42,150 nucleotides of DNA, from positions 1-42,150 of IMG/VR virus record IMGVR_UViG_3300008267_000109; one strand, written 5' to 3'. Below, in pieces: positions 5,177-36,400 of this stretch. The DNA comes from a virus. The notes under the pieces were generated by a model, which did no database searches, had not been told where the DNA came from, and saw nothing but the letters and a program-made list of their open reading frames with translations. Positions within the stretch are counted from its first letter, which is position 1. Every line of letters starts with the position of its first letter. The translations under genes were made by a program, and so were the position numbers.

Positions 5177-8100
5177 ATGGGAAAATCAAATTACCCAGAA
5201 AAATACGATACATCAGTTGAAATTCCACAAGTTCGTGGAAATATAAATGATATTTCAATAGATTTACTTTCCTCTATAAGATCGGCCATTTTTCAGATAG
5301 AGCGTACACTTGGAATAAACCCACAGGGTTCTGCGACAAATACTGTTGCAGAAAGATTATCAAAATCAATTGATGCCTCTGGAAATATAAAAAAGGAAGC
5401 ATTCGATAGCGCTGGAGTAATTTATGGCCCAATAACAAATGATTTAATATCATCTGTTGCGGCAATTGATGAATCAAAATTAAAACTAAACTTTCCCACA
5501 TCATTATTACAGACAGAGATAAATTTAACTTTATCTAAATTAAATAATATTCTAAGTCAGCTAGAAGAAGTATCTTCAAAATTATCATCTCATATCTACT
5601 TAGATACTCCAAATAGACATACTGCAAAATCTATTTATATAGACCAAATTATTCAATCTGGATTAGAAACCGCAAAAACTTCTATTGGAGAAGAATCTTT
5701 ACATGATTTTCTATCCGATCTATTAAATGGCCATATTAAATATACTGGCGCAAATATTAGTGAGTTAAATAATTCTCATTTATCTAATCAAATATGGTTT
5801 GACAGCTCAAATGTATCTGACATTATATCTTCAAATAATGTACAAAGCGCACTTGAAGATATAGCTATTATTGCCTCTGGACAAGAAGAGTCTCATCAGA
5901 ATACATTTCATGGCAATGGATATTTAAATTATTCAAATATTGAACTTTTAAATTTAAATAATTTTTATTACGAGAATATACAAGTCTCATTTACAGAGCC
6001 TTTGTCAGTTGATTCTAGTAGAAAAACTAAAATTTTCATAACAACTCCTTTTGATCTATATAATATAGGTCAAGGAGATATTGTATCTTTAAATTTATCT
6101 AGCGGAAATGTAGAATATGTAATATCTGATATATTTTATACTGGATTAAATGTATCTAGCTTTAATATATTTGGATCGTTACCGGAATCATCTAATATAA
6201 ATTCAGTTGCATCTTTTAGAAAAAGAGATAAACAGAGCACGGTTGATTGGGGTTGGTCAACAACCGTAATTGAGTATCCAGATTTATTATCTGCAAATTT
6301 AATAAAAATTGCAAACCCTAGATCCCCTGGTGTAATTTCTAGAAAATTTTCATCAAATTCTGTATTATCTACAAATACTTTTACTATTGAAATAAATGGA
6401 AAAGAATATACAATAGAGTCTTATAAACCAGGGTATCAACATCAAACAATAGAATCAACAATATCTGCTATAAATGAATCACTATTGGAACAGGGAGCTG
6501 GAGCGTTAGCATATAAGGTTTTATCAAAAAATACAGGCCAATATGAGCTAGCAATAATATCAAATTTTTCAGACGAAGAATCATATATAAAAATATCATC
6601 AACATCTAATTCTTTAGAACTTTTAAAATTAGATCATTTGAATAATAAAATTATATATGGAAATAATGGATCAATATTAAATATAAATGGTGTTAAAAAA
6701 TTAGATAATAATATAATATTTTCTCTAAATGGCCTTCAATTAGACGTAGGGTTAAATTCAATATCTGGTGCTAATTTTTCAGAATATGAATTAAAAGTCG
6801 GAGATATGATAGATATATCTGGGTCAGAACAAGACGATGGAAGCTACATAATAGAGTCAATTCTTTCTGACAGAATATTTGTAAACAGTTCTCAGCTACA
6901 ATCTGGAATTTGGACATCTACGTCTGATGAGGCAACAAATTTTAAAGTAAATAGAAATATAGTATCTTTAAATTCTTATAATTTTATAGGAACAATAGCA
7001 TCCCCACAGGGCACATTGTTGGAGATTATTTTAGATAAAAATTTAAATCCATCATATAGAACAAAATTAGAATATAAAATGACTTTTTATTCTGGAGATT
7101 CACTGTATTCTATAATTGAATCATCTAATGTAAGTCAAAATATTTCTGAAATTTTATATTTTAAATATGATGGAACAGATCTTTATTGTTATTTTAGTGA
7201 AAATAAAAAACAAAAAATAACAAATTATAAAAACAAATATGTAACTATTTTTAGTGAAAATTATAATTTTAATATTAAAATTATAATATATAATGCTGAT
7301 GATATTATATCTTATATGTCATCACTATCTATAACAGAATTATCAAGAGAGGTATATGCATATGGTATAGTAGATTATGAAAGTATAATACTACTATCAG
7401 CATTATCATATTCATCCGCCAATGCAAGGGTCGAGGGAGGTTTTTTTAGACTTCCTTATGTACTGGACCTTAAAGATACTGGATCTTTAAAATATAAAGA
7501 TTTATCAAGAGATTCTATATTAAATATTCAACAAATTCCAACTATGGAATTAAGAAACTCTGGCATTATTAATGGTCTTGAAATATTAAATGTATCATTA
7601 GATATAAATTTAAATTATATAGTAAATGTATCTCCAGGGACTGCTTATATTTCTGGTAAAAGATTTTCTTTTGAAAAGTTTAATTCAATAAACACAGGAA
7701 TTGATTCAACATCTTTTGATAAAATAATTTTGTTTATAAACAAAGATGGTATTTTGTTTGCAGATTCTGCAAACTCATTAACATGTAATTTTTCTATAAA
7801 TTCAAATGATAATATCATACTTGGCACAATTGAATACAACAATATAGAATTTCAAATAATAGACCAGAGATTGCTAATATCAGATCTAGATTTTAAAATT
7901 TTAAACTCAGTAACTGTTAGCCCAGTAAATGGAATGGGTCATTTTACATCTATAAATAAAGCTATAAAATATGTAAAAAGATTTTCACAGATTTATCCAA
8001 ATGCAGGAATTCCAGAGATAAAATTAAAATCAGGAACGCATAGAATAGAAGTAGATACAAATTCTACATTTGCATCAGTATCTAATTTAAATCTTATAGA

Positions 8101-9955
8101 ATATTCTGAATTATCAGGCATTTTAATTGATTTTCCTGTTAAAATCTCTGGAGAAGGTGACTCTACAGTATTAGATATAATAAATGGATATTCTGATTAC
8201 CCAATATCTTCAGATGACAGATCTACATCTGCAAGAAATAGAGGCTACATTATAATAAATGGATCTGCATCCTCCAACTATCCTGCATTTTCTAACGATA
8301 ATTTTTCTAATGGAAATATATATCTTGAAAACTTTAAATTAAAAAATGGAACAATACTGGTTGTTGATCCATTAGTTTCAAATAACTTAAATAAATTTAT
8401 ATTTGATATAAAAATAAAAAATATTTATTTTGATTGGTCAAATTTTGTATTCCCAAATGTATTAGGATCTTTAAGTCTTACAAATTATTTTATAAATGGA
8501 TTTGCCATAAGTATACTGCCAACTTCTCCAACCCTACTATCAAATTTTGGAGGATTGACAATAGATTCATGTATATTTGATACTTGTTATATTGACTTTT
8601 CTAGCTCAATATCATATTCAAATATATTAATTAGTAATAATTCATTTTTATCTAGAGATGAACTATCTAAACCATTAGCAAGATCATTTTTAATAAAGGT
8701 AAATTCATTAACATCTTCTACTCTTTTAGAAAATAATAATTTATTGATTAATAATAAACCATCATATAACTTATATAATAATGGTTATTTGCTATATAAC
8801 TCTTTAGGATCGGTTGGTTTATTAGCCAGTGAAGCTGCATTTTATTTATCAAAAAACAAAATAGGAAATGATTCTGTATCACTAGTTGATGATGCATTTT
8901 TAATAAACTCAAGTGGAGTAATAATTGATGGTGACTTAACTGTAAATAATAATTTAAATATTTTAAATGATGTAACAATATCAGGAAATCTTACATCCTC
9001 TGGTCTGTCCACTTTTGGCGGAACATTACTACCAGAAACTGTATCAATAGACGTTGGAGATTCGTCTAATTACTTCAGAGCTGGATATTTTACAACATTA
9101 AGATCTAGTATTTTAAATACTACAACTTTGGCTAAAATAGGATCTGCAGCTATTGTGTTGAAAAATACAGCAGATACATCAGTTCCGGGTTCAAAACTTC
9201 ATATTAGACAGAATTCTGACTCTGTTGTATCTGGAGTTGGACCTGGACTTAGACTTGAGGGACCAGTGCTTAATAGCGCCTGGGATATCTATTATACAGG
9301 ACTTAGGCAGTTACAATTTTCACTTACAGATCTTTCAACAGGAGTAAGCTCCGACCGTGCTTATATCCAAGATTCTGGATCAAATACAGTTTTAAACTTT
9401 ACCGGACAACATAAATGCTGTACAATAGATTCTGATAATATAGATGATTACAAATCTTTAGTTGGATTAATAGTTGTTTCCTCTGGATCTTATTCAAACA
9501 TAGCTGTTGATAAAACATTGCCAACAATAAATGAGTCATTGCCAAAAATTACATTGTCTTCAAAGAAAAATCAGAAAAATGTTTTTGGAGTTGTATCTGA
9601 TTCAGAAGATCTAAATAGTGACAGAAGAGAGTATGCTATAGGCGCATTTGTAACTATTTTTGATAAAAAAATGACAAAAGATGATACAAGGGTTGTTGTA
9701 AACTCACTTGGCGAGGGTGGAATATGGGTCATTGATCAGTCTGGTGATCTTGAAAATGGTGATTATATTACCACATCGGATGTGCCTGGATATGGGATGA
9801 GGCAAGATGACGATATATTAAGAAACTATACAGTTGCGAAAATAACAGAAAATTGTAATTTTGATAATATTTCTAAAAATAGAATAAAAAATATTACTTT
9901 TAATGGTAAACAATATAGGGCAGTCTTTGTCGGCTGCACTTATCACTGCGGATAA
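5177..9955 (+). CDS. Giant tail fibre with C-terminal autochaperone-like domain
   Basis: This 1592-aa protein looks like a fibre. Residues 1-115 form a virion-attachment-type module (IFQIERTLGINPQGSATNTV; AGVIYGPITNDLISSVAAID) shared with the next gene. Residues 120-235 are a coiled coil and linker, also shared. Long beta-rich repeats follow. At about 905-1005, GMGHFTSINKAIKYVKRF and then LKSGTHRIEVD and ISGEGDSTVLDI look like the start of a pectate-lyase-type right-handed beta-helix. Around 1260-1330 a VNNNLNILNDVTISGNLTSS segment resembles trimeric fibre shafts. The last 130 residues (GDYITTSDVPGYGMRQDDD; end VGCTYHCG) match a C-terminal domain common on phage and giant-virus fibres, likely for trimerisation or chaperoning. 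GGAGAG precedes ATG 5177. Host receptor or polysaccharide binding is inferred. Confidence 0.75.
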   Translation: MGKSNYPEKYDTSVEIPQVRGNINDISIDLLSSIRSAIFQIERTLGINPQGSATNTVAERLSKSIDASGNIKKEAFDSAGVIYGPITNDLISSVAAIDESKLKLNFPTSLLQTEINLTLSKLNNILSQLEEVSSKLSSHIYLDTPNRHTAKSIYIDQIIQSGLETAKTSIGEESLHDFLSDLLNGHIKYTGANISELNNSHLSNQIWFDSSNVSDIISSNNVQSALEDIAIIASGQEESHQNTFHGNGYLNYSNIELLNLNNFYYENIQVSFTEPLSVDSSRKTKIFITTPFDLYNIGQGDIVSLNLSSGNVEYVISDIFYTGLNVSSFNIFGSLPESSNINSVASFRKRDKQSTVDWGWSTTVIEYPDLLSANLIKIANPRSPGVISRKFSSNSVLSTNTFTIEINGKEYTIESYKPGYQHQTIESTISAINESLLEQGAGALAYKVLSKNTGQYELAIISNFSDEESYIKISSTSNSLELLKLDHLNNKIIYGNNGSILNINGVKKLDNNIIFSLNGLQLDVGLNSISGANFSEYELKVGDMIDISGSEQDDGSYIIESILSDRIFVNSSQLQSGIWTSTSDEATNFKVNRNIVSLNSYNFIGTIASPQGTLLEIILDKNLNPSYRTKLEYKMTFYSGDSLYSIIESSNVSQNISEILYFKYDGTDLYCYFSENKKQKITNYKNKYVTIFSENYNFNIKIIIYNADDIISYMSSLSITELSREVYAYGIVDYESIILLSALSYSSANARVEGGFFRLPYVLDLKDTGSLKYKDLSRDSILNIQQIPTMELRNSGIINGLEILNVSLDINLNYIVNVSPGTAYISGKRFSFEKFNSINTGIDSTSFDKIILFINKDGILFADSANSLTCNFSINSNDNIILGTIEYNNIEFQIIDQRLLISDLDFKILNSVTVSPVNGMGHFTSINKAIKYVKRFSQIYPNAGIPEIKLKSGTHRIEVDTNSTFASVSNLNLIEYSELSGILIDFPVKISGEGDSTVLDIINGYSDYPISSDDRSTSARNRGYIIINGSASSNYPAFSNDNFSNGNIYLENFKLKNGTILVVDPLVSNNLNKFIFDIKIKNIYFDWSNFVFPNVLGSLSLTNYFINGFAISILPTSPTLLSNFGGLTIDSCIFDTCYIDFSSSISYSNILISNNSFLSRDELSKPLARSFLIKVNSLTSSTLLENNNLLINNKPSYNLYNNGYLLYNSLGSVGLLASEAAFYLSKNKIGNDSVSLVDDAFLINSSGVIIDGDLTVNNNLNILNDVTISGNLTSSGLSTFGGTLLPETVSIDVGDSSNYFRAGYFTTLRSSILNTTTLAKIGSAAIVLKNTADTSVPGSKLHIRQNSDSVVSGVGPGLRLEGPVLNSAWDIYYTGLRQLQFSLTDLSTGVSSDRAYIQDSGSNTVLNFTGQHKCCTIDSDNIDDYKSLVGLIVVSSGSYSNIAVDKTLPTINESLPKITLSSKKNQKNVFGVVSDSEDLNSDRREYAIGAFVTIFDKKMTKDDTRVVVNSLGEGGIWVIDQSGDLENGDYITTSDVPGYGMRQDDDILRNYTVAKITENCNFDNISKNRIKNITFNGKQYRAVFVGCTYHCG

Positions 9956-9965
9956 CGGAAGGAAA

Positions 9966-12900
9966 ATGCCAAAATCATCTTATCCAAATAAAATAGATTC
10001 TTCCATAGAATTACCAATAGTAAGAAATAATGTAACTGAAATTAACTCTGAAATAATAAATTCACTAAGAGATGCTATTATTCAAATAGAAAAAACTCTT
10101 GGTATTAATCCAAATGGATCATCAACATTATCAGAAAGATTGCTGGTATCAATAGATAATAATGGTGAGTTAAAAAAAGAAGCCTTTGATAAGGCTGGTG
10201 TAATTTACGGCCCAATAACAAATGAAGTTGTTTCTGACTTTGCAGCAATAGAAGAGTCTAAGTTAAAATTAACTTACCCAACTGTATTACTACAATCAGA
10301 ATTTTCTTTAGTTAAAAAAGAATTGGATAATTTAATTTTAGTGCTAAATGAAATAGAGGCAAAGCTATCAACCCATTTGCTAAGAACTGCGGTGAATGTA
10401 CATAATTCAGATAATATATCTGTAAATACGATATCTTCTGGATCTTCAGAAACTGCGGCTTTATCATTTTCTAGCGGAACACTAAGTGATGTATTAACAG
10501 ATATTTTTCACGGACACATTGGATTTTCCGGCGCAACATCAGAGCAGAATAATTCTCATCTTGCATCTCAGATATTTTTTAATAATGAGAATGTTTTAAA
10601 TATAATTACTCAAAATAATTTACAAGGAGCAGTAGAAGAGTTATCTTTATCAAATAACAATTTGTTGAAAACAAACATATTTAATACAAATTCAAATGGA
10701 ATTTGCAGACAGTCTAAGATATTGGATATTGTAAATGGTGTTGATGGTGGATTGAAATTAGACTCTACATCAGTAAGTTATTCTGCGACTACTAATGGCG
10801 AACAAATAATAAACATATCTACACCTATAGAGCCACTATTTTCATTGGAGAAATATGATATTGTAGAGGTTACATCTAGTGTAACACAAACAACGAATAG
10901 ATACCTATTGCTAGATTTTACAACTTCATTGGGTCTGATAACTAGTATAACCGTATTAAATGGATCGAATAATGACAGTGATGCAACATCTCAGGTAAGA
11001 ATTTTAAAAAATCCATATCAAATATCAAATATTAATTCTTATAACACAGTTGTAAGACCCAGGTATAACAGAACAAATACACCAGATATAATTGTTGCCC
11101 ATCCATCTTCCGCAACAGTTACAACTAATAATTTTTCTGCAGAAAAGATAAACTTAACAAAATCAAATATCTCTTTTGAAGTAGATGGAGTTTTGGTTGA
11201 AATTCCTGTATTTAATTCATCTAGGGGTGACACAAACTCAATTGATGAAATTATTTTAAATATAAATGAATATTGCTCCGATAACAAAATTCCAATATTT
11301 GCCTATAAAATTAGAAGTCTTTCATGCTATGAAATAGCAATTTCTCATGTAATTCCATCATGGATTGATAGCTCAAAAAACAGAACTATAATTCCAAGAA
11401 TATCATCATCAAATGATTGCTCTGAAGAATTTGGAATAATGGATTTTATAAATGTTGAGTTTTATGGATCTTATGGAAATTCAATATTGATAAACGGATC
11501 AATATCTGGAGATCCATCCACTGTAAAAATGTACTCTTCTGATGATCTATCTCTTGTTATAGGCTCAAATAATATAGAATTTTTGGCATTAAATCCAATT
11601 TCAGAAGGAATAAAAATAGGCAACCTATGCTATATTGATGGAAATGGACTTTACAGGATCTCTTCTATAGATGAAAATTCAATAACATTAGATGATCAGG
11701 GTAGTACTTTTTCAGTACAAATTTCAAATACTGACAAAGTTTTTATTATAAAAAATACAATATCTTTAGAGCAGTTTGAACTATCTGAAATAGTTGGATC
11801 AAATGGATCATTAATATTAGATCTTTTTATGACAGATGATTTCCAATTTGGAGCACATATCAGGGCCGCAATACAGGATAACTTAAAATCTAATTTGTTT
11901 AGCGGAATAATATATGATATATCATCAGGATATTCTATCGATTCAAGTGACGAGATAAATATATCTGTAAATGGTATAGTTACTGTTTTCGATGGATCTA
12001 GCACTTCATCTGGAGATCAAGTTTATGGATCTGGAGATTATATAATTAGATCTCCATCCGGAACTGGATTTTACAGAATGAAAACAAATGGTGTTCTGCC
12101 TCTTTTAACAACACTTAGCATTACAGTAAATGGTTACTCAGAATTACCGATGGGCTTGATACATCTATCCAGATGTATATATTCTACTGCATTTGGAAAT
12201 GTAATAGGAGAGGACGATATTGGAGTTCCATCCTTAATAGACAGAAGGCCATCTGGAAATGTTAATGAGGTAATCATATCACCATCTGTAATAGAAAAGT
12301 ATGTAAGTGGACCAAGAGGAGAGCTTAGATCCGATGGTGTAGTATCTGGTTTGAGTTACTCATTCTCAGATGAGACAGCCACAGATTGCAAGGTGTCAAT
12401 AAATCCTGGATTTTATTATAATATTGGAATCAGATATAAATTCAATGGAGTGGTAGACTTACCAATAACACACAATGGAAGTGATTTCTTTATAGGATTT
12501 GATAAAGATGGATGCTTAAGAATTGGAAATACAATTACAGATCCAATTACATCAAATAGTATATCTCCATTCTTTGGAGAGAGAATGACATATTTAGCAT
12601 ATGTCATACCAGATTTATCTGGAACTTTACTTATAAATGATTTAAGAAAATCTATATCATTAATAGATAAAAAAATTAATGAAATTATAGTATCACAAGA
12701 TGAAGATTATGGTCATTTTACCTCTATAAAAGATGCAGTTGCATATGCCAGATATTATAAAATGTTTAATAAGGTAAACTCAATTCCATCAATTTTGATA
12801 AAAAATGGTACATATGAAATTGATGAAACAATTATATTAGATTTCGATATATCAATATCTGGATCTGGCCCATCAACTATATTAAAGCCATCAAATAATC

Positions 12901-13574
12901 TTCTTTCTAATAGCTCTTCAGAGTCTTTATTGCTATCTCATTATGACTCTGCTATGTTTTTAATAGGATCAAGTGATATAGATTCTGCAAACCAGTCATC
13001 TAATTTTGTGTATGGGGTAAGAATAAGTAATCTTACATGTACTTATCATGATAACTATAGTATTTCATTGGATTCAAATTTTAATATATTGTTTTTAATA
13101 ACACAAGGCATTAGCAATTCAAGTGATATCAAGCTATTTAAATTTGATAATATAACATTTGATGGATCATCATCCATGTCAGAATCAACAAATAATACAC
13201 CTGGATCATTAGATGGAACAAGGCAAATTATTCCAATTTGCTTTGGTGTTGCCTCTGATTCATCTGGAACAATTCCATCTAATTATGGAAATTTAATGGT
13301 TAATAATTGTATATATAATTATATTGGTACTGGCTGGTCATTAATGGGCTCAATTATATCATTTGCAGGTACTTATAACATAAGTAATGTTGTTATTAAT
13401 AATAATATAATTAAGAAGGCATCTCCAAGTCAAAATACTGTTTCTAGTGGCGAATATTATATATTTAATAGCTCAACAAACTATGTAATGTCTGGCTTTA
13501 CTTATCCAACTACAGACTCTGTAACCCTTACCATGACACAAATTTCTATAAACGGAAATGTAATATCTGATTAA
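9966..13574 (+). CDS. Tail fibre paralogue lacking C-terminal chaperone domain
   Basis: This protein of about 1202 aa has an N-terminal 230 residues that align end to end with the upstream fibre (SSYPNKIDSSIELPIVRNN; IIQIEKTLGINPNGSSTLSE; AGVIYGPITNEVVSDFAAIE; and the NNSHLASQIFFNNENV stretch). The middle is divergent beta-rich sequence. Residues about 905-975 (EDYGHFTSIKDAVAYARYY; LIKNGTYEIDETI; ISGSGPSTIL) again look like the start of a parallel beta-helix. The protein stops after the helix and lacks the GDYITTS/VGCTYHCG domain of its paralogue. The frame is open to an ATG at 9903, but I place the start at ATG 9966 because it follows GGAAGGA and aligns with the paralogue's start. It may form mixed or stacked fibres with it. 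Confidence 0.72.
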   Translation: MPKSSYPNKIDSSIELPIVRNNVTEINSEIINSLRDAIIQIEKTLGINPNGSSTLSERLLVSIDNNGELKKEAFDKAGVIYGPITNEVVSDFAAIEESKLKLTYPTVLLQSEFSLVKKELDNLILVLNEIEAKLSTHLLRTAVNVHNSDNISVNTISSGSSETAALSFSSGTLSDVLTDIFHGHIGFSGATSEQNNSHLASQIFFNNENVLNIITQNNLQGAVEELSLSNNNLLKTNIFNTNSNGICRQSKILDIVNGVDGGLKLDSTSVSYSATTNGEQIINISTPIEPLFSLEKYDIVEVTSSVTQTTNRYLLLDFTTSLGLITSITVLNGSNNDSDATSQVRILKNPYQISNINSYNTVVRPRYNRTNTPDIIVAHPSSATVTTNNFSAEKINLTKSNISFEVDGVLVEIPVFNSSRGDTNSIDEIILNINEYCSDNKIPIFAYKIRSLSCYEIAISHVIPSWIDSSKNRTIIPRISSSNDCSEEFGIMDFINVEFYGSYGNSILINGSISGDPSTVKMYSSDDLSLVIGSNNIEFLALNPISEGIKIGNLCYIDGNGLYRISSIDENSITLDDQGSTFSVQISNTDKVFIIKNTISLEQFELSEIVGSNGSLILDLFMTDDFQFGAHIRAAIQDNLKSNLFSGIIYDISSGYSIDSSDEINISVNGIVTVFDGSSTSSGDQVYGSGDYIIRSPSGTGFYRMKTNGVLPLLTTLSITVNGYSELPMGLIHLSRCIYSTAFGNVIGEDDIGVPSLIDRRPSGNVNEVIISPSVIEKYVSGPRGELRSDGVVSGLSYSFSDETATDCKVSINPGFYYNIGIRYKFNGVVDLPITHNGSDFFIGFDKDGCLRIGNTITDPITSNSISPFFGERMTYLAYVIPDLSGTLLINDLRKSISLIDKKINEIIVSQDEDYGHFTSIKDAVAYARYYKMFNKVNSIPSILIKNGTYEIDETIILDFDISISGSGPSTILKPSNNLLSNSSSESLLLSHYDSAMFLIGSSDIDSANQSSNFVYGVRISNLTCTYHDNYSISLDSNFNILFLITQGISNSSDIKLFKFDNITFDGSSSMSESTNNTPGSLDGTRQIIPICFGVASDSSGTIPSNYGNLMVNNCIYNYIGTGWSLMGSIISFAGTYNISNVVINNNIIKKASPSQNTVSSGEYYIFNSSTNYVMSGFTYPTTDSVTLTMTQISINGNVISD

Positions 13575-15320: not shown

Positions 15321-18300
15321 ATGGCTAACATTCCAGGTATATCAGGTTATATACAGCCTGGCGCATTCGCAAGAGACAGGGTTGTAACAAAAGCTGTCAG
15401 TATTCCAGGCGGCTTAAGAATAGCTGCAATAATGGGAGAAGGCATTAGCGAACAGGTATTGGTTGAGTCTGCAGCAGGAGGCGGTTCTGACGGAGTTGCT
15501 GATTGCTCTCCAACTGGATCAGGAGATGGCAGATTCTTTAAACTATCAAGTTTTCCTGTTGTATCAGGAAGAACAGAGTTATTGCTAAATGGCGTACAAC
15601 TTTATGGTATTGAGCAGGAAATAGATGAATCTGGATTTGACTCAAGATTTGATTTTAGATTAGATACTCAGACTGGATGTATAGAATTACAGTCACCATC
15701 GATAAAAGATCAGGGTGGCAAAGGATTTTCTGTTAGCTCTCTAAATATAGGCAACGGAACAGCTCCTTCTACAGACTTTCCTTGCAGCGTATTAGATGTA
15801 ATAGATCTAAGCGCTCCAGCCGAAAGATGGACATTGAAATGTGTTTCTGTAGTTAGAGACTCATCAGGATCGCCAGTTCCAGGTAGAGCTACATTTTCTG
15901 TAGTTGGAGAAAAGTCAGGCCAGTTGTATGATCAATCTGGTAACCCAATATTTTTTCATAGCACTTATTTCACAAGTTCTTCCGGTTCTGTATCTGGAAA
16001 TATAGATCCATGTTCTGATGCATATGTTGTTGCATCATCATCAGAATTTAGCCAAGGAACTCCAGAGCCAGACGGCGGAGAAACACCAGATACTACAAAT
16101 ATATTTACATTTACAGGTAATTTAGTATCACAAGGTCAAGCATTACCAGGGGATTTCCTATGTGTTGATGGTTATACATCTGTTGAAATTGAATCAATAT
16201 CTTATGATTCAGATACAGATACAACAACATTAATATTGGAATCAGATTCACTAGAGGGTGTTGGTGTAGCAAAAGATTGGGAAATAAGAGCAACAAATGT
16301 ATTTATAGACGATGTTGTTGACGGTAAATTTACAGGCTCTGATGTAGGAAAGATTATATTGGCTTGCCCAACAGGATCTTTTGACGGTGGTAAATTCTTG
16401 ATTACAAAAGTTACAGCACCAAACGTAGTAAGGGTTCAGAAATACGAAGATACATCGGTAGGATTTCCGGCACAGAGTGGTGTTGGCCTAACTGGTATAG
16501 CACAAGACAATATAACATTCCATTTAGTAGAAACAAATGGGGTTATTCAGGTTGGAATTCAAGAAGGAACAATAGCATTTGAAGTTGGGGACAGAATATT
16601 TATTGACGTTGCCTCAAGAGCACTATCATTTGGTGATAGGCTTGTAGCAAGGTTTATTTTTGAAGGGAATCTTAATGACCCAGAGTTATTTACAGATGCA
16701 GAACTTTTGTTCCAAAAGCATGGATTGCCATCTGAAACAAACACATTATCTCTTGGTGCTCAAATTGCATTTGAAAATGGAGCACCTGGAATATTAGCCG
16801 TTCAGTGCAAACCTAGCGTTCCAAGAAGGACATCGGCACAATTACTATCTGCAGTAAACTCATCAGGAGTTGGTGGTTTCACTGGATGTCTAGATTCATC
16901 AGGATTAATTGACGATGAACTATGCGGAGTTGAGGATCTAAGATTTATAATACCAAGACCATTATCCGGTCTAAGGTCTGGAAGACCACACTCTGACTCT
17001 AGAGTAAATATCTTTGTAAATAGAGCAGGAAAAGAGACTCAAATATTCCCAAATAAAGTTGGATTCTATAATAGCCAGCTAGATACAGATTCTCAGCAAT
17101 TAAACTTTATAATAAGTACAGATAATCCTTTCTCATACACAATAGTAAATACAGATACAGAAGTTTTATTTACTGCAGAAAATGGAGAAATTATTTCGGC
17201 ATCTGATGGCAGATCAATCTCTAGCTTATCACTAAATCTTGATCAGCAACACGTTGGAGCAACTATAGTCATAGAGTCAATGGAGGATTTATCTGGAAAC
17301 ATATATACATCAGTAGAGGATATATCAAATGAATTATATGGTTCATTATTAGATCCATCAGCTGAAGTTGTTATATCTTCAATATTATCTGACTCTAGAG
17401 CATTATTAGATGGTTCTGGAACAAACACTTTAACATTTACAAACAAATATGTAAATATACAATTTTTTGTAAAATCTACAAACACTTCAGTAAAGAGTGC
17501 TGCACTATTGCTGCATAAAGATTTGGTTAAGAGTGGGGCAATAAAGAAAGGCGATGGAATTAGAATTACATATGTAGACGAAAAAGATGCAGACTTCTTT
17601 GATACAAATTGGTTTTCAGCATTTGAAAAGTTAGAGTCTGCAGATGCTCAAATAATAGTTCCGCTACCTTCCAGTACAATATCTCCAATATTTAAGGCTG
17701 CAGCAAATCACTGTGATAATATGAGTTCTATAGCCAATAGAAAAGAACGAGTGACTATAATTGGAGCACAAAGAGGATTAACACCATCTCATTTAACAGG
17801 AGAGTCTCTTGCTGCGGTTGAAGACCTTGGTATACTTGAGGGAATACAGGGCGATGACCCACTAGAATTACTAGTTGGCGATATTGAAGATCTTTCAAAC
17901 TACAAATTATCTGATAATTTTGATACAAAGAGGGCTGTATATTTATATCCAGACACAATAGTTAGAAATGTGTCTGGTACAAATATAGCACTTCATGGGT
18001 TTTATATGGCACCAGCTGTTGCTGGATTATTGTCAGCGACACAAAATGTATCAATACCATTAACAAATAAGGTAATACAAGGATTCTCCCTTACAAGAGA
18101 TAAGGTTTTTAGACCACTAATACTAGATAGACTTGGTGGATCTGGAGCAACAGTTGTTCAACCATTGCCAGGTGGGGGAAGGGTTCTTGCAGGAAGAACT
18201 ACAAGCCAAAGCGGATTTGTGGAAGATGAAGAGATTTCAATAGTATTTATTAGAGACAGAGTAAAGCAAGTACTTAGGCAGTCTCTTTCCAGCTTTATAG

Positions 18301-18515
18301 GCGGCGTACAAGGGCCGGATACATTGAGTCTAATGTCTGCAAGAACAAAGGTTATAATGAATGGATTGGTATCGCAAGGTTTGGTTACAAACTTTAGTAA
18401 CATTAGGGTATCCAGAGATAAAGTTGATCCAAGACAGTTAAATGTATTCTTACAATTTGTCCCATCATATCCAATAAATTATGTATTTATAGATATAGAA
18501 GTCGGCGTAATATAA
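15321..18515 (+). CDS. Contractile tail sheath protein, enlarged
   Basis: This 1064-aa protein is the subunit of the outer contractile tube. The N-terminus (GISGYIQPGAFARDRVV; SIPGGLRIAAIMGEG) has the usual handshake-arm strand and entry to domain I. Residues about 720-1064 are the conserved sheath core: FEKLESADAQIIVPLPSS, then RVTIIGAQRG, LHGFYMAPAVAGLLSATQNV (about 890-909), and FIRDRVKQVLRQSLSSFIGG. The C-terminal strand (FLQFVPSYPINYVFIDIEVG) would complete the neighbour's sheet. Typical sheaths are roughly 370-700 residues, so about 400 residues of beta-rich insert between residues 60 and 700 are extra and probably decorate the outside. It is followed after 22 bp by the tube gene. Confidence 0.9.
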   Translation: MANIPGISGYIQPGAFARDRVVTKAVSIPGGLRIAAIMGEGISEQVLVESAAGGGSDGVADCSPTGSGDGRFFKLSSFPVVSGRTELLLNGVQLYGIEQEIDESGFDSRFDFRLDTQTGCIELQSPSIKDQGGKGFSVSSLNIGNGTAPSTDFPCSVLDVIDLSAPAERWTLKCVSVVRDSSGSPVPGRATFSVVGEKSGQLYDQSGNPIFFHSTYFTSSSGSVSGNIDPCSDAYVVASSSEFSQGTPEPDGGETPDTTNIFTFTGNLVSQGQALPGDFLCVDGYTSVEIESISYDSDTDTTTLILESDSLEGVGVAKDWEIRATNVFIDDVVDGKFTGSDVGKIILACPTGSFDGGKFLITKVTAPNVVRVQKYEDTSVGFPAQSGVGLTGIAQDNITFHLVETNGVIQVGIQEGTIAFEVGDRIFIDVASRALSFGDRLVARFIFEGNLNDPELFTDAELLFQKHGLPSETNTLSLGAQIAFENGAPGILAVQCKPSVPRRTSAQLLSAVNSSGVGGFTGCLDSSGLIDDELCGVEDLRFIIPRPLSGLRSGRPHSDSRVNIFVNRAGKETQIFPNKVGFYNSQLDTDSQQLNFIISTDNPFSYTIVNTDTEVLFTAENGEIISASDGRSISSLSLNLDQQHVGATIVIESMEDLSGNIYTSVEDISNELYGSLLDPSAEVVISSILSDSRALLDGSGTNTLTFTNKYVNIQFFVKSTNTSVKSAALLLHKDLVKSGAIKKGDGIRITYVDEKDADFFDTNWFSAFEKLESADAQIIVPLPSSTISPIFKAAANHCDNMSSIANRKERVTIIGAQRGLTPSHLTGESLAAVEDLGILEGIQGDDPLELLVGDIEDLSNYKLSDNFDTKRAVYLYPDTIVRNVSGTNIALHGFYMAPAVAGLLSATQNVSIPLTNKVIQGFSLTRDKVFRPLILDRLGGSGATVVQPLPGGGRVLAGRTTSQSGFVEDEEISIVFIRDRVKQVLRQSLSSFIGGVQGPDTLSLMSARTKVIMNGLVSQGLVTNFSNIRVSRDKVDPRQLNVFLQFVPSYPINYVFIDIEVGVI

Positions 18516-18537: not shown

Positions 18538-19176
18538 ATGGCATCATATCCATATACAGGAACTTTATTTGACTCTGAGGCTGTTACTGGCGCTAAAACA
18601 AGGACTAATCTTAGTACACAAATTGTTGTCTATGTAAATAATCAGCCAGTTGGAGCTATTCAAGATTTTCAAGAGCGTCAACAAAGATCTATTAAAAAGA
18701 TAACAGAAGTAGGAACAGATGGCATCATAGAATCCGTACCTCAGTCAGCAACAACAATATCCTTAACAGTAAGAAGGATAGTTTTTGATGGATTATCATT
18801 GCCAGAATCAATGGCTAGAGGTTTTAGAAATATTCATGCTCAAAGAATACCATTTGATATAGTTGTTATTGATAGATTTACTGGCACCGAAGAAGAGGGT
18901 GGTGCAATAGTCACTACTTATCATAATTGTTGGTTCGAAAGTCTAGGAAAATCTTATACAACTGGCGACTATACTATAACTGAAGATGCAACCTTATCTG
19001 TAGAAGCTATAAGTACAGAGAGAAATGGGGCACCAATTGCAAGCAGTCAGGGCGTTGGAGGGGGAAGAGATCTTGGTTCCGAAGGAAGGCAGATTGATTC
19101 CGTTGAGCAGGCAGCTGACTATGGAACATACAGAGGAAGTATGGATTTTCCAGGTTTAATAAAATCAGCATTTTAA
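18538..19176 (+). CDS. Tail tube protein
   Basis: This 212-aa protein is the inner tail tube subunit. It has the tube-like segment VYVNNQPVGAIQDFQERQQR (about residues 31-50), then IKKITEVGTDGIIESVP, a strand-turn pattern typical of myovirus tubes. The second half carries FDIVVIDRFTGTE and a CWFESLGKSYTTGDYTITED strand pair, then VEAIST. A flexible Gly-rich C-terminal tail follows (SQGVGGGRDLGSEGRQ). AAGGGG precedes ATG 18538. It lies directly after the sheath and is closed by a strong intrinsic terminator, so sheath and tube probably share one abundant transcript. Confidence 0.85.
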   Translation: MASYPYTGTLFDSEAVTGAKTRTNLSTQIVVYVNNQPVGAIQDFQERQQRSIKKITEVGTDGIIESVPQSATTISLTVRRIVFDGLSLPESMARGFRNIHAQRIPFDIVVIDRFTGTEEEGGAIVTTYHNCWFESLGKSYTTGDYTITEDATLSVEAISTERNGAPIASSQGVGGGRDLGSEGRQIDSVEQAADYGTYRGSMDFPGLIKSAF

Positions 19177-19254: not shown

Positions 19255-19707
19255 ATGTCAAAAGTATCAGCATCTTTAAATAGAGAAGAAAATCAAAAAA
19301 TTAATAATATTGAATCTGAAAATAAAAAAATATCTATGAAGTCTTTAAGAGATCTAATTTTTCTAGGAAGAATAGAAAGAAGTGTTGAAATTAATGGATT
19401 TTTATTCAAACTAACAACCTTGAGCGTTCAGGAGCAAAAGGATGTAGTTTTTAAGCTAATAAAAATACCAGAAGAAAATAGAATTTTTAACGCTAAGATT
19501 GTTTCTCTTGCATTTGCAGTAAAATCAATAAATCTAATTCCATTGGATCAAATAGATGTAGATGGTAATTTTGAAGATTTAAATGATAAAAAAATAAATA
19601 TAATGCAAGAACTGCAGGTATCTGTTATAAATAAATTATATAAAATATACGAAGAGATGATTACAGAGTCAGAATATGAAGTAAATATAGAAGAAATAAA
19701 AAAATAA
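19255..19707 (+). CDS. Tail assembly chaperone (G-type, short product)
   Basis: This 150-aa protein lies between tube and tape measure, the usual place for the tail assembly chaperone that binds the tape measure before tube polymerisation. An N-terminal disordered charged region (1-30) precedes RDLIFLGRIERSVEINGFLF and then FKLTTLSVQEQKDVV (residues about 52-66), a pattern I associate with myovirus chaperones of this type. The coding sequence ends ATA-AAA-AAA-TAA, placing a slippery heptamer directly before the stop. It is therefore also the N-terminal part of a 291-aa frameshift product (see 19704-20129). GGAG precedes the ATG. Confidence 0.75.
   Translation: MSKVSASLNREENQKINNIESENKKISMKSLRDLIFLGRIERSVEINGFLFKLTTLSVQEQKDVVFKLIKIPEENRIFNAKIVSLAFAVKSINLIPLDQIDVDGNFEDLNDKKINIMQELQVSVINKLYKIYEEMITESEYEVNIEEIKK
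19698..19704 (+). promoter_or_regulatory. Slippery heptamer A-AAA-AAA for -1 frameshift
   Basis: Seven A residues span the third base of an ATA codon and two AAA codons in the chaperone frame, with the stop TAA immediately after (19705-19707). Both tRNAs re-pair perfectly after a one-base backward slip, the X-XXY-YYZ rule. Slipping bypasses the stop and continues in an open frame of 141 codons. Confidence 0.82.
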
Positions 19708-20129
19708 CAGAGGGGCCAGATTCAAAAATACTCTGGTCCCTATCTAAACTATGGAAATGCCCCATTGATGATCAAAGAATTTTATCTTTAAATAAAAATC
19801 AAATACTATGGTATAGTTATATGATTCATAACGATCAGAAGAACGAATTTGAAAGAGATTTGTCATTTGCAGAATATATAGCAAGCTTTATAAATCCAGA
19901 GGCAGTATCCAGAGTTAAAGAATCAAGAGAAAAATCTAAAAATACTAATTTTATGGATGACAAAGAATTTGAAGAAATGATAAAGAATAAAGATTTCTTA
20001 AAGGTTGATGGAATAATAAATAGAACTGCTAATAATGAAGGTATTATTGATAAAAGAAAATCAGCAAGAGATACTAGACTTCCAAAAGAATTATCTAGTA
20101 TTTTAAAGATTAATAGAGATAATTTTTAA
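19704..20129 (+). CDS. Tail assembly chaperone GT extension (-1 frame)
   Basis: This 141-codon segment is read only after a -1 slip at 19698-19704. The joined product is about 291 aa (150 from the upstream frame plus 141). The extension starts ITEGPDSKILWSLSKLWKCP and runs through LNKNQILWYSYMIHNDQKNE, then a charged helical tail ending ILKINRDNF. It is open without a stop from the slip site. An internal ATG at 19821 would give 102 aa but has no Shine-Dalgarno, and the 113-bp gap it would leave is coding in this frame. By analogy with lambda gpG/gpGT, the T part would recruit tube protein to the tape measure. The tape measure gene follows 21 bp later. Confidence 0.75.
   Translation: MTEGPDSKILWSLSKLWKCPIDDQRILSLNKNQILWYSYMIHNDQKNEFERDLSFAEYIASFINPEAVSRVKESREKSKNTNFMDDKEFEEMIKNKDFLKVDGIINRTANNEGIIDKRKSARDTRLPKELSSILKINRDNF
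19711..19741 (+). promoter_or_regulatory. Frameshift-stimulating RNA hairpin
   Basis: AGGGGCCAGA (19711-19720) pairs with TCTGGTCCCT (19732-19741) in ten base pairs, one of them G-U, closing an 11-base A-rich loop. It is the most GC-rich short stem I noticed in this AT-rich window. It begins six bases after the slippery heptamer, the distance at which downstream structures pause the ribosome in -1 frameshifting. No loop partner for a pseudoknot is evident nearby. Confidence 0.78.
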
Positions 20130-20150: not shown

Positions 20151-21956
20151 ATGTCACCAACTAATTTTTTTGAAAAAGCCACAGAATTTCTTGGAGATAC
20201 TTCAGCTGCAGCAAAAGATGCAAACATTGCAATAGATAATCTTAAAAAAGGAATATCTGGAATAACAGGTGGCTTAAATAATTCGCTGTATTCGCTAGAT
20301 ACATTTGCCTCGTCATTTGATAATATTAAATATTCAATTGATTCAATGAATGATTCAATGAATGGTTTTAAAAATATTTTAAACATATCCGGCGGAGGCC
20401 CTATAACTACAACATTAGGTTTGATGTCTAGTGTATTAGATGTTGCATCGCAATCTATAAAGATGTTTCGTGGCGGGTTAGAAGGATTTGATTCCGTATC
20501 TGAAGATATAAGAAAGGCAGATAAATCATTTTATGATTTAGGAAGAACAATAGGTCTAACCAATAAAGAAGCAATGGAGATGACAGATTCACTTCCTGAT
20601 AGAACAATTAATGATTTATCAAAAAGTCTTTATATAACAGAAGATAGATTTATATCTATGACTTCTAGTTTAAAAGAGTCTAATTTAAAATTTGATCAAT
20701 TAAATCAAAATATTAAAACATCTTATGGAAATATAGATTTATATACCATGATGATAGCTCAAGCAGATTCTGCTGGTGTTACACTTCAAGAATCTGTAAA
20801 TATTTTTGACACTCTAATATCAAAACAGGGTATGACAGCCCAGGCGGCCTCAGAATCTATGGCAGGATTTTCCCAAATTGCAGAGGATACAGGTATAAGG
20901 TTTTCTGAGGTAAAAAATATTTTAAATCAAAGTATTTCTGGCTTTGAAAAAATGGGAACAACCGTAGAATTTGGAAGGCCAATTTTGGAAAGATTTGCCA
21001 GTACTGTTAAGGATGTTGGACTAGGTATAAATGTCGCTAGTGATTCAACACAAGATTTCGTAAGAAATATAGCTGGATTATCAGATAATTATGGTCTTAA
21101 CTTCCTAACACAGATTAGAGGTGGCGGTAATCCTGCGGGAGTATTAGATGCGTCAATACAGATGAGACAGAGGATGCGTGAGGCAGAAGAGACTGGAGAG
21201 CAGGGATCTATTGCTGTTGAAATTGCAAAACAAATAAGAGATACTATAGCATCAATGACTGGCGGAAATATAATAACCCTGGAGCAGGCAGCAAATTCTC
21301 CTGAATTGCAAAATCAGTTTTATATGCAGGGTCAAATGTTATCTCAGTATGGTGTTAGAGATACTAGAAGTCAAGATTTGGTACTAGACATGTTGTCTAA
21401 AATAGACGAAGCTAGTATCACAGGAAGCGATAAGGCGCAGCAAGATCTTGCAAGAAGACTTGGTATAGAAATAGAAGCAAAAGAAAAGAATATGTCAGAG
21501 ACTGAAAAAATTGATTCATTTTTTAGATCGCAAAGTGCAAAAACAGCAATATCTATTAGGGATTTAGGAGAGTCTGCTTCATCTGTGGCACTTGAAATGA
21601 GGAAATATGCTGAAAATAACCTTTCAACAGTTTTTGATTTTTTAAGAGATAGAGTAAAAGATAATAATTCTTTTAATCAAGAAGATGCTGATGGTATCAT
21701 TGAAAAAATGAAACAAGAATTTCCCTTCTTAAATACGAATGAAGTTTCCCAACCGACTCCAAATACTCAGCCAAATGTAAATAATATTAATGAGCCTCCA
21801 GAGCTTAATTACTTAGGTGATTTAAGAGATTTAATTAAAGAATTAATTAATAAAATATCAAATCAACAAATAGTAAAAATAGAATTATCAAATGACGCGC
21901 AAAAACTTGTTAGTGTATCACCATCAGGTACTGCTGGTCTAAATACGAGTCCATAA
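20151..21956 (+). CDS. Tape measure protein
   Basis: This 601-aa, largely helical protein sits directly after the frameshifted chaperone pair, the defining position of the tape measure. N-terminal repeats of small and polar residues (IDNLKKGISGITGGLNNSLY; DSMNDSMNGFKNILNISGGG) and a mildly hydrophobic stretch (TTTLGLMSSVLDVASQSIKM, about 84-103) precede long amphipathic helices. The C-terminus is a linker rich in Pro/Asn/Gln (about 525-550) and a short helix. At about 1.5 angstrom per residue it would measure a tail near 90 nm, short for a virus with such large baseplate proteins. No peptidase or lysozyme domain is visible. AGGAAA precedes the ATG. Confidence 0.78.
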   Translation: MSPTNFFEKATEFLGDTSAAAKDANIAIDNLKKGISGITGGLNNSLYSLDTFASSFDNIKYSIDSMNDSMNGFKNILNISGGGPITTTLGLMSSVLDVASQSIKMFRGGLEGFDSVSEDIRKADKSFYDLGRTIGLTNKEAMEMTDSLPDRTINDLSKSLYITEDRFISMTSSLKESNLKFDQLNQNIKTSYGNIDLYTMMIAQADSAGVTLQESVNIFDTLISKQGMTAQAASESMAGFSQIAEDTGIRFSEVKNILNQSISGFEKMGTTVEFGRPILERFASTVKDVGLGINVASDSTQDFVRNIAGLSDNYGLNFLTQIRGGGNPAGVLDASIQMRQRMREAEETGEQGSIAVEIAKQIRDTIASMTGGNIITLEQAANSPELQNQFYMQGQMLSQYGVRDTRSQDLVLDMLSKIDEASITGSDKAQQDLARRLGIEIEAKEKNMSETEKIDSFFRSQSAKTAISIRDLGESASSVALEMRKYAENNLSTVFDFLRDRVKDNNSFNQEDADGIIEKMKQEFPFLNTNEVSQPTPNTQPNVNNINEPPELNYLGDLRDLIKELINKISNQQIVKIELSNDAQKLVSVSPSGTAGLNTSP

Positions 21957-30491: not shown

Positions 30492-33400
30492 ATGAGTAAT
30501 TCTATTACATCTCTTATTGCTGGCGAAATAAATACCAATGAAGATAAAACTTCTATTCAAATTAATTGCGAACCAGATTCTGTACAAAATAATGGTTCTG
30601 AAATATTCAATAGAGTAAAATACGAAGTTAAAATACCATTTAATAGTGGAAATTCTCTGCCAATTTCTGGAGGATCTATTGTAAAAATAGACCCAGAAAA
30701 TTCAACATATTTTTTAAATAAAAATGATGAGTATATAGCCAGAGTAGAAAGTCTAAATAGAATTATAAATAATGAGCTAAAAGATATATCAAATGATAAT
30801 TTTGTATTTTCAGAATATAAAGATTTATCAAAAATTAAATTAAGCATTAACAAGTGTTTATATGAATGTGCAAAATTTTTAAAATCAAGTAAAAATTTTT
30901 ATGATACAAGTTATGTACCTGAATTTATATTAAGCTCAATTAAATCAAGTCTAAATATAAATAGTTTATCAAGTGATTTGAATGAAAAAGCCAGTAAAAA
31001 ACTAAAAGATGAAAATCTCATTAGTTTTGGATATTTACAATATATACCATTTGAAAATATAATAAATATATATTCTTTAATTTCAAAAACAAAAAATCAA
31101 GATTCTCAACTTAAAGGAGTTGGAACTTTCACAGGAAACTTGGGAATTTCTTTTGAAAATATTTATAAAAAATTAAAAAATTTGGAAGATAGTCCTGAAA
31201 ATTTTACTGATATAGAAAAAGAAAATATAATATCTTGCGCAATATTAGAAATATTTCCAATTTATAGAATAGAAGAGGATATTATAGAGTCAGGAATTGA
31301 TGGAGATCCTAAAAACCAATTATCTGGATTTTATACATTCTTTGGATCAAAATTCTATATAAAAATGCCAGACCTATCTGGTAGAGATTTTAATGAAAAT
31401 ATAAGTACATTTAATTATGATACTGAAGACGGCACGCCAATTCTTCTTTATTATATTTTAGAAATTTTTGCAGGAAATAAAGATATAAGAGAATATAAAA
31501 ATATAGTATTTAACTATAGTCAATTTCCATCATTAACAATACAAGATTCAAGCATAAGTTATCCATCTACTTCTGGTGGACAAGAAGAATCTTTATTATC
31601 TTGGAATGGTGAAATAAGTCAATTTTTATCATTAAAACAAAACTTTTTAATAAATTTTAATAATTTAAGAGATTTTAAATTTTATTTATCGCCAGTTATA
31701 AAAAATAAATCAAAAAAAATAAAAGGAATATCTGGATTATCTTCAGACAAAATTGAAATATCTACAATACCAATTGATTTAACATTTAAGGATAAAATAC
31801 CAAATATAGATAAATTTTCAACCGTACCTTTATATTATAATTCAATTTCATCCCTAGACTCTATTTTATCTGCATTGAACAGGCCTGAGTTGATTATTTC
31901 TGATAAAAATAATTCAAAAAGATTACTAACAAATGAAAGATTATTTTATTCAACTGAACAACAAAACGTAAGAACTCTGGTCTGTGGAAATAGCCCTAGA
32001 TATATATATGATCTTAAAAAGATAGATAATTCAAAAGATATAGATTATGCTTTTACTCCAATTGTTCCATCTGATATATCACTTCATGTACCAAAACATT
32101 GGATGCCATTGGAAATAGATGATGGTGGTACATCAGGCGATACTTTATCTTTAAAGCTTTCTGAATTGGCAAAAAATAATTTAAAAAATTACTTTCCAAT
32201 AACAGGAGTATCATCAGGTACGGATGGTATTTTCCCAATTTCAAGTAATAATGATCTTGAATTTGCAACATATGCCATAGACTCTATAACAGGTCAGTTT
32301 CTAAGAATTCCAGGATATATAAAAATTAATGTATCTGAATCAAGAATAACGAAAATTACTCCAGATGGATATCAGGGGGGTAGTAAAATTAGCCTTAATG
32401 ATGAAATTAGATTAGATATAGAGGGCGAAGGCTTATCTGGTGCATATGAATTGATGCTAGATGTACCAGGAAATCCAAGATCTATTGTTAATAAGAATGA
32501 TCCAGAGGTTAGTATATTTTCATCTAGTGAAAATAAAGTTGAATTAATAATAAATAAAAACTGGTCAAATGTTTTAACTACTATCGGTGAGTTTCAAGTT
32601 TATTTGAAAACAAATAACACTATAAATAAAGAAACAAATAAATATAAGATAAATATATCTAATGAATTTCAGGTTGATTTAAAAACAAAAGAATCTGTAT
32701 TAGTTGACTTTGAATCATTAAATTGTATTTTTTATCCAGAAAAAGGGTTTAGTATTGGTGTAGACAAGAATATAATAACTGAAAATGGCCCAGATTCTAT
32801 TCCATATATAATTGGTGGCGGACAAGTATCATTAAATTTAAAATCAAAAAATAGAATATTTTCACAAGAAAACTTCGATAAAATATATGCATATATAGCG
32901 TTTGAAAATTTAGATGTACTAAAGCAGACAACTATAGAGGAAAATATTTTTTCTATATCTTATGGTAATAAAAAGTTATTTACAAATAAATCACTAGTAT
33001 GGAGCTATGGATCCAGCCCCTACTTTACAAGATCTGGTTCTGACAGAAGGGCTAAAATATCTTTTCCAGGCCCAATGAATTTGGCCGAGAATAATTTCAG
33101 ATATCTTATAGAAGATCATAATAATATTCCAAAAAATGCTTATTTGGTATTTTCAAATTCTTTATTGTCTTCAGATATTGAGTTTAATTTACAAGATTCT
33201 TATCCTATATCAATATTAAAAATAGGAAGTACAGATGAATCACCTGATTACTCACCACCATTTATAAGCCCTCCAAATATTGTTGGCACAATAATAAAAT
33301 CTGAAAACAACAGTAGCATATATGCAAATTTTGATCCATCACAAATAATTGCATCCACTGATTCATCAAGTCTTTCATTTTTAATTAAAAAATCTATACC

Positions 33401-36400
33401 AAATGATATGGTTTCTGAAGATGCAATATCAAGGATAATAAATGGTAAGATTTCCTCATCCAAGAAAATAAAGGGTTTAATTATATTATTTAACGGACCA
33501 GATAGACCATCTAAATATTTTAAAAATAATTATAAATTTTATATAGGTTTACAAAATATAACAAGAAATAGGGTTGGCAAGATAAAACATCTTAAAGATG
33601 GAGTTGTATGCGCTTATTTTAAAAATATAAATGTGCCATTACTAAATGGTTTTACGGATATAAATATAAAAGTATTTGATGAATTTGGTCAATATGATTC
33701 ATCTTTATTTACAAAGATAACAAAAAAGATTAATAAAACAAATATTTTAATATCTGGAAGTGGTAATGAAAAAACATTAAGTATTAATAATTTAAATGAT
33801 AGAAGAATTCAAACATATACAGATGGTTATGCTTCTTTAAGGCCAAATATATTTAACTTATCGCTTCCATTAAATGTAAGTATAGAAAAATTTTATTATC
33901 AAAAGTTTGGATATACAAATGGATCTCCAGGTGTATTACCAATTGCCAGTAGTGATCCATATATTGACTTCTTGTCTCCTATAAAAATAAGGCCACAAAA
34001 TTTTAATTTAATATTTGGAAATATAGATGCACAGTCAAATCCATCAAGCTCAATTAGCGGCTCAAGGATTCATAATTCAGACGGTCAAGACTCGATAATA
34101 GAAGTCTCTAGTAATTCTATAAAAGTAATATTAACAAAAGATGAATTAACAGCAAAAGCTCAAAGATTACTTGATGAAGTTAGATCCAAAGTTTCTAATA
34201 TAAAGAGTAGAAATAGTGACTTTTCCTCTGGTGACGAAGGAAGTGTTGGAGCCGAAATAGCAATTTCATCTGGAAATCAAGTTGTCAATATAGAAAGGTT
34301 ATCTGCAGAGCTTAATGAATTAATTGCTGATGCAAACTCAACTGTTGAGCAGATTCAGGAGAAAATAGATCTAATTAATTCCGTAATGAAAAAGGCTTCA
34401 CTTCTTGCAGATAAACTATCAAGTGCCAACTTTAGCTTATCAGATGCAGTAGAGCAAATTACAGATCAGGAGCTTTTACAGCTTGGAGCGCCGGACTCAA
34501 TAGTAAGGTTGAATCAAAAATTTACTTATATTCCAGAAAATATAAAATATAATGAATCTTTTATATCTGAATATAATGACTATATTATTTTGTCAAATAT
34601 AATAAAAATAGAGCAAAGCCATGTTATTGAGTTAAAAATTCCAGAAATAATAAATATAAGAGATTTAAAAAATAATAAAATTTACAATAAAAATAATTTT
34701 TCAGAATTAAAATTTGGAAATTCACAAATAGAAATAGAGGTTGACATTAGAGGGGGCGATAGAGACACAAAGATAGAACTTGGTGGATATAGGCTACCAA
34801 CCAATTTTACAAGAATATCAGGTGACATAGCAACTTATAATGTTATTATTAATCCTCAAAATTTGATACTAGTATTCTCTGGAAATAACTGTGTTAATAT
34901 ATCCATAACAAGCTCAAATATTCCAAGAATTGGTGCAGAAAGAATTTTAGATCCACTTGCCGGACAGAATATAGATTTGTTTTTCGAAAGAGCAAAGGGG
35001 TCTATAGATAAGGTTGGCAAAGGAAAATTAGACTCTATTATAAAAAGAACCAAGATGAAAGTTGGTCCTGTAATCTACGATAAATCATTGGCCGCAAAAG
35101 AGTTTTTAAAGAGTATATGTGATGCATCATTTCATTTGACTGCAGAAATATCTTTTCAATTAAAATTTTTAAAAATATTATATATTCCAATTAAAGTTAT
35201 ATTTTGTATTATAGACGTTTTATGTTCTTTATTGCATCCAGTTAAATTAGCATTTGCAGTAATTAGACTATTCGCATGTTTATTTGATTTATTGCTATTA
35301 TTACCTCCAATTGCAATGCCAATATTGTTCTTAACATTAATGTTGCATATATTAGAACTATTACTATGTGTTATTCAAAAAGCAATAGGGCTAGTTGTAG
35401 CTGTAAATGAGGTAATAACGGCACTAGATACAGCCGTAAGAGTTAGAGATATTGAGTCAATTAAAAATCTTGAGCTGACCCTTAACGAGCATTTCTTAAC
35501 AATAGAGGCGGATTTTCAAGTTCTTGAGCCAATATTCCAAATATTAGGATTAATACTTGAGCTACTACAATTAGCCTTCTCATTTCCTTGTCAAATAGTT
35601 CAAGATGAGGATCAGCCAACATGTATAGACCCATCAATGTTGGCTGGAATAATTTTGAGCAAGGTAGCTCCGAATGGCTCTTTGGTTCCAGACGCAATGT
35701 TGCCATTAGCACAAGATTATACCAGATTGTCCTCCCTGAGAACTGGTGAAAATGGCAACAGCCCAGAGGTTGAAAATAATAGAGTATCCATATTAGATGT
35801 TGACTATCAAACTCCTCCAGAGGATCCGCGTGGTTCTCCAATAAATAATGTTTTATTTAGAATATCAGAAGCTATAAACAATAATAAAACAATTATTGTA
35901 TCAGATAACAGTAATTATGCCGGAAATATATTGCCTGACTTAAAAGATTCTCAGACAAATGAATCAAAAACTGTTGAAAAGGGTGGATTTTTTTCTGGTG
36001 ATTTAAATGGAGATGGTTTTATAGATAATATAGATTATGAAAAAATGAGATTTTCATCTGGAGAGTTTGATGCATCATTTGTAATATCATGTACAAAATC
36101 AAAGAAAAAATTTAGTCTTGGAATACCTGTTTTTAAGCCAAAAAATGATCCAAGATTTGTTGAATTTCAATTTAATTCAGAGGGTCTAACATCTGAATTA
36201 TCATTCGTACTAGGCTCAAGAATCGGAATATTCTTTAAGAAAAAAATTGTTGATGAACTATTTACAGTAGACACACCTCCAGCGCTATTAAAAAAATCTG
36301 GAAAATCAATTACAATTCATAACTCTGCATCCATTAATCCAGATGATGTAAAGTTAATTAGTCCAATTGATGGATTTTCAGAATTTATAGAGTTTGCTGG

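Follow-up and report, generated by a model that had tools for sequence, protein, structure and literature searches.

A predicted programmed −1 ribosomal frameshift, with a stop codon at a fixed place, in the tail assembly chaperone gene of an uncultured phage G-like virus

Introduction

How a phage may draw a pair of tail assembly chaperones from a single start codon is the question raised by a gene whose zero reading frame closes on a stop codon abutting seven A residues while the −1 frame runs on. In the siphophage lambda a −1 frameshift near the end of the short chaperone gene (G/GT) makes a short and an extended form. The gene considered here lies in a stretch of DNA of 42,150 bases (the window; IMG/VR record IMGVR_UViG_3300008267_000109), a metagenomic fragment of 30% G+C from an uncultured phage distantly related to Bacillus phage G. 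Its site is like that of lambda in layout, near the end of a chaperone gene that in lambda stands between the tube and tape measure genes, although the tail module of the window is a contractile one. On the sequence evidence set out below it seems very probable that this phage uses programmed −1 ribosomal frameshifting to produce both a short and an extended tail assembly chaperone from the same start codon.

A contractile tail module of the phage G type

The surroundings of the site are a contractile tail module, read from the plus strand. A tail sheath gene (15321–18515, 1064 aa) matches phrog_2839 (2.1e-16) in its C-terminal part only, and a tail tube gene (18538–19176, 212 aa; phrog_985, 2.6e-11) lies directly upstream of the chaperone reading frame. 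This zero-frame ORF, encoding a short G-like chaperone of 150 aa, runs from the ATG at 19255 to 19707; the T-like extension in the −1 frame (19704–20129, 141 aa plus stop) would be reached only via a frameshift, and is followed by an ORF of 601 aa (20151–21956).

Bacillus phage G is the only annotated isolate that matches the window's tube protein, with gp180 showing 29% identity over 60% of its length. In the published account of the phage G tail, gp180 is one of two tube candidates, and gp181/gp182 were named chaperones because of a lambda-type translational frameshift and were not detected in virions (PMC8570332). The two genes are annotated as joined tail assembly chaperones (NC_023719, 110944–112046). 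Both phages share the order of sheath, tube candidate, chaperone pair and next tail gene, and so a homologous tube protein, a frameshifted pair and a kept gene order mark the window's module as phage G-type (Donellivirus-like), at an identity of about 29–30%. The gp181/gp182 pair is the closest known relative of the window's pair. The phage G junction, TTA-AAA-AAC-TAG, is an A_AAA_AAC heptamer with an adjoining stop, laid out as in the window, but the extension there is of 252 aa as against 141 aa, the gene that follows encodes a tape measure of 2893 aa where the window has an ORF of 601 aa, and the hairpin at the site is weak (z −0.7 against codon shuffles, −4.1 in the window). A scan of genome contigs found no relative and so gave no clue to the host.

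Several other features of the module and its neighbourhood deserve a record. Sheath families account for only the C-terminal third of the 1064-aa sheath protein (15321–18515, plus strand) and leave a large N-terminal or inserted part unexplained, the phage G sheath being of 579 aa. In one relative (L019, 3081–3170) a second partial match to the tube protein lies just past the tube gene and may reflect a tandem tube duplication. Two adjacent plus-strand ORFs of 1592 and 1223 aa (5177–9955 and 9903–13574, with a 53-base overlap) have N-termini that look paralogous by eye (SxYPxKxDxSxExPxVRxN..., KEAFDxAGVIYGPITN...), and are perhaps duplicated tail-fibre or baseplate proteins. Three small ORFs amid the structural genes (3889–5166, plus strand), with membrane-like segments and coiled coils seen by eye, are possibly a lysis cassette. 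At the window's end a minus-strand ORF of 611 aa (40255–42090) carries about seven tandem repeats of 87 bases (29 aa; FSDKPWAxPYIDxAAKLAAENDS-like), and family searches with it gave no convincing match.

Anatomy of the frameshift site

The zero frame from the ATG at 19255 ends ...GAA GAA ATA AAA AAA TAA. Seven A residues (19698–19704) make up the slippery heptamer A_AAA_AAA, and the TAA (19705–19707) follows with no gap. A spacer of six nucleotides, the stop included (19705–19710), leads to a predicted stimulatory hairpin (19711–19741), the stem of which pairs 19711–19720 with 19732–19741 in ten base pairs, one of them G-U, around a loop of 11 nt. Its minimum free energy of −16.9 kcal/mol (z −4.5) was matched by none of 200 dinucleotide shuffles, and about 0.1% of 43-nt windows reach that folding stability. 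From 19680 onward the −1 frame stays open until a stop whose last base is 20129, and a fusion would have 291 aa (150 + 141). The layout agrees base for base with the preliminary description, which had set out the heptamer with its immediate TAA, the six-base spacer, the 10-bp hairpin with its 11-base loop and the length of the fusion.

The first ATG, GTG or TTG in the −1 frame is at 19821, and the conserved residues W11, K15, W17, C19 and DD22-23 of the −1 part lie upstream of it. The site therefore joins the features by which programmed −1 frameshifting is recognised, namely an X_XXY_YYZ heptamer in the zero frame, an open −1 frame that encodes a conserved protein without a start of its own, and a selected structure some 5–9 nt downstream, here at 6 nt. 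The A7 run alone carries little meaning, because A-runs are common in this AT-rich DNA (37 of seven or more within the window). When all 202 in-frame X_XXY_YYZ heptamers of the window (Y being A or T) were scored by the stability of the downstream fold, however, the one at 19698 came first, at −16.9 kcal/mol against −10.1 for the runner-up, and among the twelve top-ranked heptamers it alone touches its stop. The cassette at 19698 is not due to chance.

Conservation of the −1 phase and switching of the heptamer

IMG/VR was searched with two queries, the tube protein and the −1 frame part, and the loci so collected were reduced to distinct junctions, 65 in number once the window and Bacillus phage G are counted with the 63 relatives from IMG/VR. 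Every one of the 65 has its second part behind a slippery heptamer and in the −1 frame with respect to the first part. The preliminary description had held that a one-base difference or a separate start for the downstream frame in relatives would speak against a frameshift; neither of these, nor a fused frame, was found among the 64 other junctions. The alignment of homologues that it proposed shows a slippery heptamer kept in every junction and compensatory changes in the stem.

The heptamer is A_AAA_AAA or A_AAA_AAC at 47 of the 65 junctions (A_AAA_AAC at 8 junctions), U_UUA_AAA, lying one codon further upstream, at 16, and both in tandem, as U_UUA_AAA_AAA, at two (L132 and L161). In the tree of the fusion proteins L132 adjoins 13 U_UUA_AAA rows with a branch support of 100/99, and in view of that position its tandem site, U_UUA_AAA_AAA_UAA, looks like an intermediate in a switch of heptamer, which on the sequences is its likely status. 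Two further U_UUA_AAA rows are placed elsewhere on the tree, and so U_UUA_AAA may possibly have arisen a second time or have been lost.

The hairpin is under selection beyond the protein code

The hairpin sits inside −1 frame coding sequence, and for that reason each native sequence was set against 300 synonymous recodings that followed local codon usage and retained the stop. The mean z over the 65 junctions is −3.3 and that of the window −4.1, and the native stem falls in the best 5% of recodings in 56 of 65. In the remaining nine, which include phage G, L154 and L161, the hairpin is not set apart from its recodings; local hairpins are weak in phage G, L148, L154, L078 and L161. Compensatory changes were seen at two pairs (three cells in nine sequences, which are small counts) in the window's subgroup, and at five pairs (22 cells) in the main group of 39, where the covariation score was unmatched in 500 shuffles, shuffles that leave relatedness in place. 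At homologous, gap-free positions the relatives use three exclusive pairing registers (antidiagonal sums 33, 42 and 44), and the stem is thus kept while its pairs get replaced. This switching of register is, from the alignment, the strongest structural point for conservation of the stem, and together these results show that the hairpin is under selection beyond the protein code. Rfam at the gathering threshold gave no match anywhere in the window, and an exact-hairpin search of IMG/VR found no second copy.

Identities of the proteins

Scans with the window's chaperone parts as single sequences gave nothing usable (PHROGs at 1e-3, Pfam at 0.1), the first part having a weak PHROG match (phrog_1688, E 0.012), and PDB sequence searches with profiles of both parts found no match. 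Among 52 aligned relatives scanned singly, 22–23 matched PHROG tail assembly chaperone families, the best at 8.5e-7. The predicted structure of the first part (mean pLDDT 82) resembles phage G gp181 (E 6e-8) and gp182 (E 9e-8) most closely, and its top PDB match is HK97 gp13 (2ob9; probability 0.96, E 0.11, 15% identity), a likeness that suggests a resemblance of fold and not close kinship. The model of the −1 part matches phage G gp182 best (E 1.4e-3), followed more weakly by Bacillus and Staphylococcus tail chaperone or morphogenetic proteins. Family matches in relatives and predicted structures thus support a place for the first part in the tail-assembly-chaperone families, and, since the closest structural matches gp181/gp182 are a published frameshifting pair, the window's pair appears to belong to the known lambda G/GT type of −1 frameshifting. 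The earlier proposal of a −1 frameshift in a tail assembly chaperone is well borne out by these matches and by the architecture common to the other 64 junctions.

The preliminary description also placed the site between tube and tape measure genes. The tube side stands by family match; on the other side the 601-aa ORF is a tape measure candidate from its position, with no convincing family match and no similarity to the phage G tape measure gp183. Its complete homologues are nearly all of 580–713 aa (one is of 391 aa) and lie directly after the −1 frame stop. Far downstream a plus-strand ORF of 2601 aa (30492–38297) contains a long hydrophobic stretch, ...IPIKVIFCIIDVLCSLLHPVKLAFAVIRLFACLFDLLLLLPPIAMPILFL..., and showed no PHROG match and no similarity to gp183. 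Long hydrophobic stretches are common in tape measure proteins.

A proposed route to two products

Most ribosomes would read ATA-AAA-AAA and terminate at the adjoining TAA to release the 150-aa G-like chaperone. A minority would pause at the hairpin with two lysine tRNAs on A_AAA_AAA, slip back by one base and read on in the −1 frame to yield the 291-aa G-T-like fusion, so that the short chaperone would be in excess and the fusion minor. We infer the roles of the two proteins by analogy with lambda, in which case the tape measure protein would be covered by the short form and the tube protein brought in by the fusion. A few points count against a frameshift here. In E. coli A_AAA_AAA is less slippery than A_AAA_AAG (PMC5009743), and to this must be added the few compensatory changes in the window's subgroup and the unremarkable hairpins at 9 of 65 junctions.

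A zero-frame stop at a fixed place

All 65 junctions have a zero-frame TAA or TAG at one and the same aligned position, at the base of the hairpin and 0 or 3 nt past the slippery site. This stop directly touches the heptamer in 49 of them and comes one codon after the U_UUA_AAA site in the other 16, in the layout U_UUA_AAA_GNN_UAA. The −1 frame residues that overlie the stop are not fixed, position 1 being I, L or V and position 2 being T, I, A, V, S or M with a first base that is in every case a purine, and the chance of a zero-frame stop given those residues and local codon usage is 0.12–0.82 per sequence (median 0.39), for sequences that are related to one another. The distance from slip site to stop is 0 nt in the window, whereas published means for tail chaperones are 26 nt (SEA-PHAGES) and 36 nt (Xu set), figures that are means only and carry no claim that the window is unique (PMC10885494).

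At 18 of the 65 junctions the stop is at once doubled (TAATAA, TAATAG, TAGTAG and the like, for example L110 at 2502–2507), as if termination had been reinforced. Reassignment of a stop codon was considered and rejected, because both TAA and TAG are used at this place and every relative carries the homologous protein onward in the −1 frame.

Both stop layouts of this phage group have a counterpart in the polymerase frameshifts of luteo-, diantho- and umbraviruses (BYDV, RCNMV, PEMV2), where the foot of the stimulatory stem likewise holds a stop, 0 or 3 nt past the slippery site (PMC4737148). These are plant RNA viruses that use eukaryotic ribosomes, and the likeness is one of layout with no homology.

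We put forward tentatively, at rather less than even confidence, that in this group the frameshift signal includes the zero-frame stop at the hairpin base as a selected element in its own right, one that acts indirectly. The stop might do so by keeping zero-frame ribosomes from unwinding the stem, or by slowing down the queue of ribosomes behind them. A history to go with a selected stop, and one we hold just as loosely, is that the stop stayed where it was while the heptamer moved upstream via the tandem U_UUA_AAA_AAA_UAA and the stem changed its register. The plainer alternative is selection for a short product with that exact end.

Other explanations of the junction

Of other readings the best placed is a variant of the frameshift itself, with which its confidence overlaps, in which the P-site tRNA alone slips while UAA waits in the A site and the stop is obligatory. 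The suggestion in the preliminary description that the adjoining stop may boost slippage takes its strong form here. The contact of stop and heptamer in 49 junctions, and the single place of the stop in all 65 despite the varying −1 residues, would suit such a mechanism, and in pea enation mosaic virus frameshifting in vitro fell by 72% once a stop in a similar position had been removed (PMC4737148). At the 16 junctions of U_UUA_AAA_GNN_UAA form, however, the tRNA in the P site would be that for GNN, which cannot re-pair at −1, and so the slip must happen one codon earlier. A stop in the A site is then not obligatory for the slip, any help from it would be indirect, and an obligatory stop is rather unlikely.

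Slippage of the RNA polymerase, which by adding or dropping an A in the A7 run would give mixed mRNAs and through them the fusion, is very unlikely. The A7 run does stand in AT-rich DNA, and poly-A runs longer than 7 have been tied to transcriptional realignment (PMC3711429), but the phase is kept at 8 junctions with A6C and at 16 with only the A4 of U_UUA_AAA, runs that are not long enough for the polymerase to slip, and such slippage has no need of a selected downstream hairpin.

That the −1 frame begins right at the stop, and that the hairpin might serve as a spacer, could suggest two separate genes, with a start of its own for the second part or re-initiation beyond the TAA. This is more improbable still, as the first possible start in the −1 frame lies downstream of the most conserved residues and the invariant slippery heptamers would be left unexplained. 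Least probable of all is an error of sequencing or assembly, or a broken gene, hiding one continuous ORF, for although the A7 is a homopolymer in a single metagenomic record, with no second copy of the exact sequence found, 64 other junctions, the isolate phage G included, shift phase at the equivalent place and an indel would not produce a conserved stop and stem.

Implications

A −1 slip of the lambda G/GT kind is well known, and what merits a specialist's attention in this system is the stop that keeps its place, together with the documented changes of site and stem. The junctions supply 65 natural variants of the signal, which include a change of heptamer whose probable intermediate is present and stems that pair in three different registers. 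With the stop at one place in all 65 its role becomes testable, and the invariance offers a clean natural series in which to ask if −1 frameshifting by bacterial ribosomes is tuned by a stop close by, a matter on which the experiments we found concern plant RNA viruses. If a selected stop is indeed part of the signal, it would be a parallel in bacterial viruses to the luteo- and umbravirus layout. Overall the findings support the view that uncultured phage G-like myoviruses build their tails with lambda-type frameshifting.
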